64,000 nt of DNA from positions 1 to 64,000 of the forward strand of contig CADCTW010000001.1 in assembly GCA_902805735.1 (NCBI GenBank), in the 5' to 3' direction. The notes beneath the pieces were generated by a model. It made no database searches and had not been told where the DNA came from. It saw nothing but the letters and a program-made list of their open reading frames with translations. The translations under genes and the position numbers were made by a program. Below are positions 1-4,066 of the stretch, piece by piece. Within the stretch, counting starts at the first letter, position 1; each line of letters begins with the position of its first letter. This DNA comes from an uncultured Gemmatimonadota bacterium. GTDB lineage: Bacteria > Gemmatimonadota > Gemmatimonadetes > Longimicrobiales > Longimicrobiaceae.

Positions 1-605
1 ATCACCACGAGAACCACCACGGTCATCACCATCACGTCCGGCCGGAAGCGCTGGTAGCCGTAGCGGATCGCCACGTCGCCCAGCCCGCCGCCGCCCACCG
101 CGCCCGCCATCGCCGAGTAGCCGACCAGGGTGATGGCCGTGAGCGTGACCGCGCGCACCAGCGCCGGCACGGACTCCGGCAGGTAGGCGCGCCGCACCAC
201 CTGCCAGGGCGTGGCGCCCATCGTCACCACCGCCTCGACCACCCCGCGGTCCACCTCCTTGAGCGCCGCCTCCGCCAGTCGCGCCACGTACGGAATGGCG
301 CCCACCACCAGCGGGACGATGGCCGCGGCGGTGCCGATGGAGGTGCCCACCACCAGCCGGGTGAAGGGGATGATGGCCACCATCAGGATGATGAAAGGGA
401 TGCTGCGCCCCACGTTGATGGCCGCGCCCAGCACCCGGTGCGCGCGCGGCGCGGGCAGCACGCCGCCCCGTTCCGTCGCCACCACCAGCACGCCGAGCGC
501 GAGCCCCGCGATGCCGGCGAGCACGGTGGAGACGGACACCATCAGCAGGGTTTCGATCGTCGCCCGGCCCAGCATGGGGAGGAGGGCGGACGAGAAGCCG
601 GTCAT
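1..605 (-). CDS. metI: Methionine ABC transporter permease MetI (3' end outside window)
   Basis: Inner-membrane permease subunit that imports D/L-methionine together with MetN and a substrate-binding lipoprotein. About 201 codons are visible of a usual 215-220, so only the C-terminal tip is missing. The translation holds several hydrophobic segments and the binding-protein-dependent permease (EAA-type) loop, seen as a MGATPWQVVRRAYLPES stretch, followed by GYSAMAGAVGGGGLGD, which is typical of MetI. Its ATG overlaps the metN stop codon (ATGA), so the two are translationally coupled. A metQ gene would be expected just beyond the window edge but cannot be seen. Confidence 0.93.
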   Translation of the reverse strand, partial: MTGFSSALLPMLGRATIETLLMVSVSTVLAGIAGLALGVLVVATERGGVLPAPRAHRVLGAAINVGRSIPFIILMVAIIPFTRLVVGTSIGTAAAIVPLVVGAIPYVARLAEAALKEVDRGVVEAVVTMGATPWQVVRRAYLPESVPALVRAVTLTAITLVGYSAMAGAVGGGGLGDVAIRYGYQRFRPDVMVMTVVVLVV

Positions 606-1645
606 GCGGCCTCCAGCCGGGACACTTCCACGCCGCGCCCGCGCAGGTGGTCCACCGCGCCCGCCAGCGCTTCGCCGCTCCCGGTGACGTCCACCACGAA
701 CGATCCGTATGGCGTGGCCGTGGTGCGGTCGATCTCGCCCGCGAGCACGTTGACGGTGACGCCGAAGCGGTGCCCCACCTCCCACAGCAGCGGCTCGCCG
801 GTGACCGGGCCGAGGAACTGGAGGGAGAGGCGCGCGGCCGAGCTTCCCGCGGGCGGGCTCCACGCCGGTCCGGCCTCGCGCGGCGACAGGAGACGGCGGG
901 CGGCGGCGCTCCGGGGGCGGAGGAGGACGTCGCGTGCGGCCCCTTCCTCCACCACCTGGCCCGCATCCAGCACCGCCACGCGGTCGCACAGGGCGCGAAC
1001 GGAGCTCATCTCGTGCGTCACCAGGAGGATGGTGAGGCCCAGCTCGTCGCGCACGCGGCGCAGGAGGTCGAGCACCGTCGCCGTGGTCTCGGGATCGAGC
1101 GCGGAGGTGGGCTCGTCGGTCAGGAGGAGCTCCGGGCGGGCCACCAGCCCGCGCGCGATGGCCACGCGCTGGCGCTGCCCGCCCGAGAGCTGGCCGGGGT
1201 AGCTGTCGGCGCGCTCGGCGAGCCCCACCCAGCGCAGGATCTCCAGCGCCCGCTTGCGCCCCTCGCCGGCCGACGCGCCCGCCAGCGAGAGGGGGAGCGC
1301 GACGTTCTCCGCCACGGTGGCGGAGCGGAGGAGGTTGTAGCTCTGGAACACCATCCCGATCTTGCGGCGCGCCTCGCGCAGCGCGTCGCCGTCGAGGACG
1401 GCCAGGTCGTCGCCGCCCACCAGCACGCGGCCGGCGTCGGGCTGCTCCAGCCGGGCGAGGCACCTCACCAGCGTGCTCTTGCCGGAGCCGCTGAAGCCGA
1501 TCACCCCCTGGATGGTGCCGCGCGCCACGCCCAGGTCGACGCCGCGGAGGGCGTCCACCCATCCGGCCGGGGTCCGGTATCCCTTTCTCACTCCCTCCAG
1601 CCGCACCACTTCGGCGGGGGGAGTGCTCGCTTGGTCGTTCACCAT
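602..1645 (-). CDS. metN: Methionine import ATP-binding protein MetN
   Basis: ATPase of the methionine uptake ABC transporter, 347 aa, the usual family length. The Walker A motif is GFSGSGKST near residue 50, the signature is LSGGQRQRV, and Walker B ends in LLTDEPTSALD. The last ~90 residues form the NIL regulatory domain, which binds methionine and inhibits transport in the E. coli enzyme. The start is supported by a GGAAG ribosome site about 5 bases upstream of the ATG. A terminator hairpin ends only 19 bases before the start codon, so expression is probably controlled by attenuation (see the leader peptide entry). It overlaps metI by 4 bases. Confidence 0.96.
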   Translation of the reverse strand: MVNDQASTPPAEVVRLEGVRKGYRTPAGWVDALRGVDLGVARGTIQGVIGFSGSGKSTLVRCLARLEQPDAGRVLVGGDDLAVLDGDALREARRKIGMVFQSYNLLRSATVAENVALPLSLAGASAGEGRKRALEILRWVGLAERADSYPGQLSGGQRQRVAIARGLVARPELLLTDEPTSALDPETTATVLDLLRRVRDELGLTILLVTHEMSSVRALCDRVAVLDAGQVVEEGAARDVLLRPRSAAARRLLSPREAGPAWSPPAGSSAARLSLQFLGPVTGEPLLWEVGHRFGVTVNVLAGEIDRTTATPYGSFVVDVTGSGEALAGAVDHLRGRGVEVSRLEAA

Positions 1646-1663
1646 GCCACTTCCGGTTGAGGC

Positions 1664-1703
1664 AAAAACAAAAAGGCCCGCTCTCCGTATGGGAGAGCGG
1701 GCC
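1664..1703 (-). terminator. Attenuator-type terminator in the metN leader
   Basis: On the minus strand a perfect 12-bp stem (GGAGAGCGGGCC with its complement, 5-base loop, positions 1675-1703) is followed by TTTTTGTTTTTG. This is a textbook intrinsic terminator, yet it lies between the leader ORF and the metN ribosome binding site. It must therefore be read through to express metNI, which points to transcription attenuation. Confidence 0.85.
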
Positions 1704-1734
1704 GGTGCGGGCGTTCGCCGCTGCGTTCAGACCA

Positions 1735-1827
1735 TCAACCGCAGGGAACAGCTCCGCAACCGTGACCGCCCTCGTGGGAGCGAGCACACATGCACATGCG
1801 GCAGCACATGAGGGTTGCGAAGGTCAT
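1735..1827 (-). CDS. Met/Cys-rich leader peptide upstream of metNI
   Basis: A 30-codon ORF that ends in TGA 31 bases before the terminator stem. Residues 7-14 read MCCRMCMC, and the whole peptide has four Met and six Cys. Such clustering of the regulated amino acids is the hallmark of amino-acid attenuators (as in trp, his and leu leaders). The inferred role is that ribosome stalling at Met or Cys codons, when charged tRNA is scarce, prevents terminator formation and lets transcription enter metNI. A second possible hairpin (GTTC/GAAC plus CTGCG/CGCAG arms, 1713-1749) overlaps the leader stop codon and could be the pause structure. No strong ribosome site precedes the ATG, which is the main weakness; an internal ATG is also possible. 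Confidence 0.6.
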   Translation of the reverse strand: MTFATLMCCRMCMCARSHEGGHGCGAVPCG

Positions 1828-1859
1828 CTTGCGGTTTCGGGTCCGGTTCGTGTGGCGAG

Positions 1860-1865
1860 CTTATA
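1860..1865 (-). promoter_or_regulatory. Possible -10 element for the metN leader transcript
   Basis: TATAAG on the minus strand would start transcription near 1853, about 26 bases before the leader ATG. No good -35 hexamer is seen at 16-18 bp spacing, so the call is weak. Confidence 0.3.
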
Positions 1866-1904
1866 TGCGCGGGGATGCTAATGGTTCCCCCGCCGGCTGT
1901 AAAG

Positions 1905-2017
1905 GGTCTCACGCAGAGGCGCAGAGACGCAGAAGAGAACAACGAGAGGAATAGAGGAACGTGACCCTCCTCCCTCTCTTCTTCTTTCTCCGCGTCTCTG
2001 CGCCTCTGCGTGAGACC
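1905..2017. repeat. Family 1 palindrome, divergent copy with long loop
   Basis: The left arm GGTCTCACGCAGAGGCGCAG and its complement at 1990-2017 enclose a pyrimidine-rich centre. The arms follow the family 1 pattern with several substitutions (ACGCAG for ACACAG). The element separates the metN leader from the cold-shock gene terminator. Confidence 0.75.
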
Positions 2018-2039
2018 TGCTGTTGCGGTGCATGCGTGC

Positions 2040-2076
2040 AAAAAGAAGGGCCGCCCGTCTCCGGGGCGGCCCTTCT
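2040..2076 (-). terminator. Terminator of the cold-shock gene
   Basis: A perfect 12-bp stem (GAAGGGCCGCCC and complement, 7-base loop, 2046-2076) is followed on the minus strand by a run of six T. It lies 30 bases beyond the csp stop codon. The other strand has only a weak T-run, so it works mainly for csp. Confidence 0.88.
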
Positions 2077-2106
2077 TCTATCCCAATCGTCCGAAGACGA
2101 GAGAGG

Positions 2107-2313
2107 TCAGACCGGCGTCACGTTCTCGGCGGCGGGGCCCTTCTGGCCCTGGACCACGTCGAACTCGACCTTCTGCCCCTCGGCGAGGGTGCGGAAACCC
2201 TGGGCCTGGATGGCGGAGTGGTGCACGAAGCAATCCTTGTCGCCGTTGTCCGGCGTGATGAAGCCGAAGCCCTTGCTGTCGTTGAACCACTTCACGGTGC
2301 CGCTGGTACGCAT
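2107..2313 (-). CDS. Cold-shock domain protein (CspA family)
   Basis: Small nucleic-acid chaperone of 68 aa, normal for the family. It begins [19 protein letters not shown] and carries RNP1 (KGFGFI) and RNP2 (CFVHHSAI), the RNA-binding aromatic patches. A GGAG ribosome site lies about 8 bases before the ATG. It is monocistronic, with its own terminator downstream and a leader of about 190 bases upstream that contains further hairpins, as is common for cold-regulated csp genes. Confidence 0.95.
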
Positions 2314-4001: not shown

Positions 4002-4066
4002 TCACACAGAGACACAGAGGCACAGAGAAAATCGTTCTTTCTCCGTGCCTCTGTGTCTCTGTGTGA
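4002..4066. repeat. Family 1 palindrome, full copy
   Basis: Arms of about 26 bases (TCACACAGAGACACAGAGGC and complement) flank a short loop. It lies 8 bases after the amidohydrolase stop and 2 bases before the convergent tetR stop, so it could serve both genes as a 3'-end element. Confidence 0.9.

Follow-up and report, generated by a model that had tools for sequence, protein, structure and literature searches.

A predicted cysteine-responsive, ribosome-mediated transcription attenuator ahead of metNIQ and related leaders before other sulfur genes in Gemmatimonadota

Classical attenuators such as the trp, ilv and his leaders encode a peptide rich in the regulated amino acid and form mutually exclusive hairpins, and in the ilv leader several amino acids act as signals. 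The polycysteine leader ORFs of mycobacteria are reportedly cysteine-responsive attenuators (Canestrari 2020). Compared with the trp, ilv and his attenuators, in the leaders analyzed here cysteine appears to be the signal and one device stands before several sulfur operons. Leader ORFs with runs of Cys codons were described before the cys operons of Mycobacterium and other bacteria, with no conserved terminator hairpins reported for them (PMC1262725). Like these ORFs of mycobacteria and other Actinobacteria, the present leaders are Cys-run uORFs before cys genes, some of which may be leaderless; in contrast to the mycobacterial ORFs as reported (PMC1262725), they have intrinsic terminators and a predicted antiterminator. 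In Rhodobacterales, ribosome-mediated cysteine attenuation with an intrinsic terminator was proposed for the uORFC-8-2 motif before cysS (PMC8632094). The present leaders share with it, as it is described there, a uORF with tandem Cys codons and an intrinsic terminator. By the same description (PMC8632094), uORFC-8-2 belongs to an alphaproteobacterial cysteinyl-tRNA synthetase gene and has two tandem Cys codons, whereas the leaders here precede genes of sulfur uptake and assimilation, carry two to six Cys per ten codons and come from another phylum. A position before cysS, as for uORFC-8-2, was read in none of the 32 leaders accepted below. No description of the Gemmatimonadota leader set was found in the open-licence literature searched.

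The window, that is, the whole 64,000-nucleotide stretch of DNA analyzed, comes from an uncultured Gemmatimonadota bacterium. Upstream of metN on the minus strand lies a 30-codon Cys-rich ORF followed by an intrinsic terminator. The features are listed below.

1903-1875, minus strand: promoter-like site, TTTACA-17-TAGCAT
1735-1827, minus strand: leader ORF of 30 codons, MTFATLMCCRMCMCARSHEGGHGCGAVPCG, with six Cys and four Met including the start
1786-1809, minus strand: regulatory codon cluster MCCRMCMC, read from the sequence, with four Cys in eight codons
1778-1782, minus strand: segment 1, CGCTC of the Arg-Ser codons, putatively able to pair with segment 2
1766-1773, minus strand: segment 2, GAGGGCGG, predicted antiterminator strand, starting 12 nt past the last Cys codon of the cluster
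1703-1675, minus strand: intrinsic terminator with a 12-bp stem, GGCCCGCTCTCC-CATAC-GGAGAGCGGGCC, from the terminator search
1693-1700, minus strand: segment 3, CCGCTCTC, within the 5' arm of the terminator, with segment 2 and the 3' arm as alternative pairing partners
1674-1664, minus strand: T5-G-T5 tract of the terminator, TTTTTGTTTTT, read from the sequence
602-1645, minus strand: metN, an ABC ATPase with a C-terminal NIL domain (PF00005 and PF09383, both above cut-off)
1-605, minus strand: metI, truncated at the start of the window and contig (read by eye)

The original prediction of a 30-codon ORF with an MCCRMCMC cluster, and of a perfect terminator with a 12-bp stem and T5-G-T5 tract 19 bases ahead of metN, was borne out at these positions; the metN ATG starts at 1645. 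The hairpin said to overlap the ORF stop also appears in predicted folds of the leader. The best NCBIfam model for the window MetN was TIGR02314 (MetN), with 288.7 bits, below its cut-off of 499.7, and the start of metI overlaps the stop of metN. A csp gene lies upstream of the leader on the same strand. No clear Shine-Dalgarno site was seen by eye ahead of the leader ORF.

The promoter-like site was the only one in 1600-2110, against a shuffle mean of 0.0. It places the expected transcription start near 1868, so the extent first given for the leader is about right. Two terminator-like sites were called in 1600-2110, compared with 0.3 in shuffles, the other one being on the plus strand (2055-2069), inside the csp terminator. 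The folding z-score of the leader was -4.4, and none of 200 shuffles was as good. Both strands of the window held 18 Cys-rich short ORFs (at least three Cys in ten amino acids), and only the leader ORF had a terminator within 100 nt. With the same distance, 5 of 96 such ORFs were positive in 184 kb of other loci, the five including the second metN leader described below; this control set was non-random, its loci having come from peptide similarity or failed model matches. For the leaders found by models and for the sir leaders described below, up to 150 nt was allowed, and the terminators called in accepted leaders were all at most 74 nt away.

A SAM or T-box motif in the same leader would have spoken for another kind of control. 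The Rfam scan of the window yielded no SAM or T-box family at threshold and no family at cut-off, and the list of a lax search of 1640-2060 held no SAM or T-box match. Atu_C7 (RF02501), a Rhizobiales sRNA, matched 1670-1762 on the minus strand with 31.6 bits, below its cut-off of 45, and is not claimed. Inverted repeats of the CAGAGGCNCAGAG type occur at 1902-2021, with similar ones seen by eye at 4005-4065 and 2553-2580; short matches to them are numerous in other parts of the assembly, and they yield spurious miRNA matches in Rfam.

A second metN, 82% identical to that of the window, was found in the same assembly on contig C167 (locus L013). It is followed by metI, above its NCBIfam cut-off, and by metQ, below cut-off. 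Control of a methionine importer operon, as originally proposed for metNI, is supported, with the operon extended to metNIQ, since MetI and MetQ are both seen in the second copy. The second metN-leader-csp segment (G000:C167:40840-42307) corresponds to window positions 1-2313, and the csp fragment at the end of C167 shares 99% identity with the window csp along 113 bp. Completeness of the assembly is 86% and contamination 5%, and the second copy may therefore be a variant from a related strain rather than a paralogue; the duplicated segment probably reflects a strain mixture in the assembly.

When the two metN leaders were compared, the C167 ORF was found to have deletions of 3, 2 and 1 nt, which jointly restore the frame and leave the stop codon at the same place. 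All six Cys codons are kept in the C167 leader and one internal Met is lost, and the two ORFs start at different places. The promoter hexamers and their spacing are identical in both copies. The expectation that an alignment of metN leaders would show conserved Cys codons and terminator with other codons varying agrees with this sole other metN copy, and the comparison suggests coding selection on the leader ORF. Searches of 61 relatives (E <=1e-60) and of 295 genomes of the class (E <=1e-70), each scoring few candidates per genome, detected MetN in no genome but the window's. With no further metN leaders to align, the wider evidence was drawn from leaders of other sulfur genes.

A degenerate MCC-CMCAR core pattern matched 2 of 395 genomes of the phylum, namely the window's own, in both copies, and G223. 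An exact-pattern search of genome contigs gave eight loci, of which L055 holds a leader and seven were put down to chance by eye, as the stretch inspected showed no leader layout; the same pattern had no match in viral contigs. In G223 and L055, a terminator and a sulfite reductase (assigned by HMM for G223) follow the peptides MIHSAFVMCCCACMCARSLEGGRHGGALPVNTG and MMCSAFAMCCCACMCARSLEGGRHGGALPVNAG, respectively, and the two sulfite reductases are 77% identical. A single-peptide search of 61 genomes recovered the two metN leaders, its other matches being weak (E 0.04 at best), and a DNA search of 21 genomes of the family gave the two metN leaders and one 29-nt match.

A sequence model (R1) was built from four seed leaders, both metN copies, G223 and L055. 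It matched 363 of 394 class genomes at E <=1, so weak matches to it mean little; 12 of the 28 best loci examined were Cys-rich ORFs with the leader layout. Among the 16 not accepted was L065, with a Cys-rich frame and a weak terminator call, which was treated as chance. A model combining sequence and hairpin (R2), trained on 15 leaders, had matches at E <=0.05 in 66 of the 395 phylum genomes. Judged for R2 were 51 of the 75 matches listed, plus L055 (52 loci), of which 35 had a Cys-rich ORF and 17 had none. All 23 matches with E <=4.1e-5 had one, 14 of them being training leaders and 9 others. The called terminator lay 51-73 nt past the stop codon in 29 of the 35 Cys-rich loci. Three of these loci (L109, L114 and L116) were dropped as chance, leaving 32 accepted leaders. 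Retained among them were L090, L091 and L098, despite a short or absent T run, and L106, a doubtful leader before a TonB receptor with two Cys in its window of ten codons. Cysteine was required for acceptance and the models include Cys codons, so its presence in all 32 is partly circular.

In the window's genome, R2 supported only the two metN leaders (next match E 1.5), and at three PF01053 loci in it neither such a leader with a terminator nor an Rfam match was seen. Of 35 leaders, 20 had a promoter-like site. In L100, L104, L110, L121, L127, L149 and L150, the end of a -10-like hexamer and the uORF start codon are 5-10 nt apart, and some of these may be leaderless mRNAs, as in mycobacteria. 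The sequence ATGTGTGC at 1783-1790, directly ahead of segment 1, recurs in many leaders beyond what coding for Cys needs; it was in the model seeds, and part of this recurrence is selection by the models.

The first gene downstream of the 32 leaders was assigned as follows, with families confirmed by HMM for representatives and otherwise read from translations.

9 leaders: sir
7 leaders: cysC
7 leaders: ATP-grasp
2 leaders: metN
2 leaders: PF01053, metY-like
2 leaders: Porin_O_P
1 leader: cysH
1 leader: sat piece
1 leader: TonB receptor

At the cysC loci, cysH came next in all four that were read or scanned (L062, L090, L099 and L102), and the sat locus holds a C-terminal sat piece followed by a sulfite-reductase-type gene. 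An ATP-grasp-like gene stands behind the Cys-rich leaders of L094, L100, L101, L105, L110, L112 and L126. This assignment is weak, as RimK-type models matched three of four scanned genes with low scores, either below the NCBIfam cut-off or, in L110, PF08443 at 35 bits; L126 also matched PF02786, and the L094 gene had no Pfam match. The ORF after the ATP-grasp gene was a Bac_luciferase (LLM) monooxygenase in all three loci scanned (L094, L100 and L112), with SfnG, below cut-off, as the best NCBIfam model in L100 and L112. The pair is a candidate organosulfur operon. Porins of the Porin_O_P family stand behind the Cys-rich leaders L091 and L097 and possibly serve sulfur compounds. The regulated genes supply the sensed amino acid in most of the set, metNIQ only indirectly and the porins and the TonB receptor not clearly so. 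A SAM-type element was suspected by eye upstream of L077; Rfam found none there, and it is not claimed.

Leaders were also sought from the gene side. A sulfite reductase (sir) search of 198 class genomes at E <=1e-60 gave ten positive genomes, and a Cys-rich uORF with a called terminator was present upstream in the operon in nine of them. Six of these loci (G019, G067, G103, G129, G239 and G244) were outside the matches listed for R2 and are left out of all counts of 32; one genus contributes three and a second genus two. In G019, which belongs to the window's family, about 0.7 kb separates the terminator from sir. The tenth genome, G087, had no Cys-rich uORF with terminator upstream; its cysH-sir operon has a SAM-II riboswitch (SAM_alpha, RF00521) at L151:2607-2680 on the minus strand, about 110 nt before the gene read as cysH. 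SAM-II, a SAM aptamer without an ORF, thus also stands before sulfur genes in the same phylum, and it had no match in the window. In G176, a SAM-II riboswitch lies at L113:1653-1727 on the minus strand, ahead of the Cys/Met leader of metY. The order read by eye is SAM-II with its own terminator, a Cys/Met-rich uORF with a second terminator, and metY, a possible two-input tandem.

The antiterminator was analyzed by pairing segment 2 with segment 3. In the folds of all four seed leaders, the 2:3 helix formed when the 3' arm of the terminator was left out, and the terminator formed when the arm was present. An ungapped 8-bp 2:3 helix was found in 22 of 28 leaders, compared with 6.8 +/- 2.2 (maximum 13) in 500 mononucleotide shuffles, and in 20 of 28 it started 4-14 nt past the last Cys codon, compared with 2.0 (maximum 7) in shuffles; the 28 are the 32 without the near-duplicates L101, L102 and L105 and without L126, for which the hairpin picker chose the wrong stem. 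The remaining 6 of 28 had no such helix. In the leaders that had it, segment 2 started a median of 11 nt past the last Cys codon. A ribosome halted on the last Cys codon covers roughly the next 9-12 nt, and this is where segment 2 starts.

The letters of the helix vary between leaders: GAGGGCGG/CCGCTCTC in the window, GAGGGCGG/CCGCCCTC in C167, GGGAAGCG/CGCTTCCC in L117, GGGAGAGG/CCTCTCCC in L110 and AGGGGCCG/CGGCCCCT in L113. The helices are not in one register, so column tallies were not used as covariation counts, and an RNAalifold run on alignment A1 was discarded because the terminators of two rows were misaligned. When arms were swapped between leaders, a leader's own arms gave -20.7 kcal/mol on average, compared with -18.5 kcal/mol for swapped arms (0 of 20,000 permutations); the own arm beat the swapped mean in 22 of 28 leaders and was the best of all arms in none of the 28. 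The 2:3 duplex of the window itself was not significant, with 63 of 200 shuffles as good, and the case for a mutually exclusive antiterminator is therefore carried by the leader set and not by the window alone. In the window, segments 1 and 2 would pair weakly; its lowest-energy fold instead has segment 2 held by a CCCTC upstream of the Cys codons.

Taken together, the leader is highly likely to be a ribosome-mediated transcription attenuator that controls the metNIQ operon in response to cysteine, as judged from sequence comparison. The ORF keeps its frame, its Cys codons are clustered and conserved, and a terminator lies between ORF and gene. A coding ORF, a Cys cluster, 2:3 complementarity with its spacing and a recurrent terminator are what the comparison of leaders supports, and it likewise favors the ribosome-mediated attenuation of a methionine importer operon first suggested for this locus. 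We infer translation of the ORF, stalling, the response to cysteine and the gain in metNIQ expression. RNA polymerase would start near 1868, and a ribosome would translate the 30-codon ORF behind it. When Cys-tRNA is sufficient, the ribosome would pass the Cys cluster and cover or pass segment 2, the terminator would form, and transcription would end before metN. When Cys-tRNA is scarce, the ribosome would stop on the Cys codons with its leading edge about where segment 2 begins; segment 2 would then be free to pair with segment 3, no terminator would form, and metNIQ would be transcribed.

The transporter resembles methionine importers, and solved relatives of MetQ include methionine-binding proteins; a cysteine signal therefore requires that Met be converted to Cys or that the transporter accept a broader range of substrates. 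The window's genome had no sir at E <=1e-60, in which case the cell might obtain sulfur amino acids through a Cys-responsive importer, presumably with Met-to-Cys conversion.

The reading closest to this one, with the ribosome stalling at Cys or internal Met codons alike so that either shortage opens the operon, is possible but rather unlikely. The proportion of Met is in its favor: in windows of ten codons closing with the last Cys of the cluster, 46% of residues were Cys and 15% were Met (29 leaders, near-duplicates removed), with means of 4.6 Cys and 1.5 Met over the 32 leaders, each window holding two to six Cys, and an internal Met was missing from only 5 of the 32. The ATP-grasp leaders L100, L101 and L105 have MCMCMC runs, and the six sir leaders found without a model also carry Met beside or near the Cys run (CCCM, CCMM, CCM and CCAM). 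However, R1 and R2 were trained on seeds containing ATGTGT, which favors Met in the leaders they found; an internal Met was lost between the metN copies while every Cys was kept; and some windows, such as CCCCVCLC and CCCPKTC, have no internal Met. A Met ahead of the cluster may also be an alternative start codon, and the SAM-II riboswitch ahead of the G176 metY leader means that Met status has another sensor there. The dual Met and Cys peptide originally envisaged therefore holds up for Cys (six of six kept in the second copy) and less so for Met, enriched as it is at 15%. Cysteine is the best-supported signal, with Met as a possible second one.

Very unlikely is the explanation that the ORF encodes a genuine small Cys-rich protein, metal-binding or a RiPP precursor, followed by an ordinary terminator, with metN having its own promoter. 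Such a protein would fit a Cys-rich peptide that recurs and an ATP-grasp gene as first downstream in 7 of 32 loci; it does not account for a segment after the Cys run that is complementary to a terminator arm, or for the same layout ahead of unrelated sulfur genes. The gene after the ATP-grasp gene is the LLM monooxygenase in the three loci scanned, the sole promoter-like site in 1600-2110 is upstream of the ORF, and the window peptide had no match in Pfam or NCBIfam, nor two other leader peptides in NCBIfam.

There is likewise little probability that control is Rho-dependent or translational and without intrinsic termination, as proposed for the mycobacterial polycysteine ORFs. The mycobacterial cys leaders, with Cys runs and no conserved terminator hairpins (PMC1262725), would be a precedent, whereas the regular position of the terminator past the stop codon in the 29 Cys-rich loci argues against it. 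A chance Cys-rich frame before an unrelated terminator, e.g., that of the csp gene upstream on the same strand, is next to impossible, as csp has its own terminator (about 2080-2041, by eye), the promoter-like site intervenes and the leader features are conserved.

Cysteine attenuators are known elsewhere, and the metN leader, as far as sequences can tell, is very probably another, one of a set spread over the phylum. More speculatively, and with doubtful odds, one reused cysteine attenuator might run much of the sulfur supply in Gemmatimonadota (sulfate assimilation, organosulfur compounds, porins, metY and metNIQ), standing in places behind SAM-II so that the gene would open only at low levels of both SAM and Cys-tRNA, with Met codons adding a second sulfur amino acid as direct input. 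Before metY, the tandem of SAM-II and Cys leader would form a natural gate with two inputs. The leaders could also mark sulfur-supply genes, candidates being the ATP-grasp enzyme beside the luciferase-like monooxygenase and the porins. A little-studied phylum thereby gains a concrete system of sulfur control, which suggests that a classical attenuator may serve as a multi-operon cysteine regulon.
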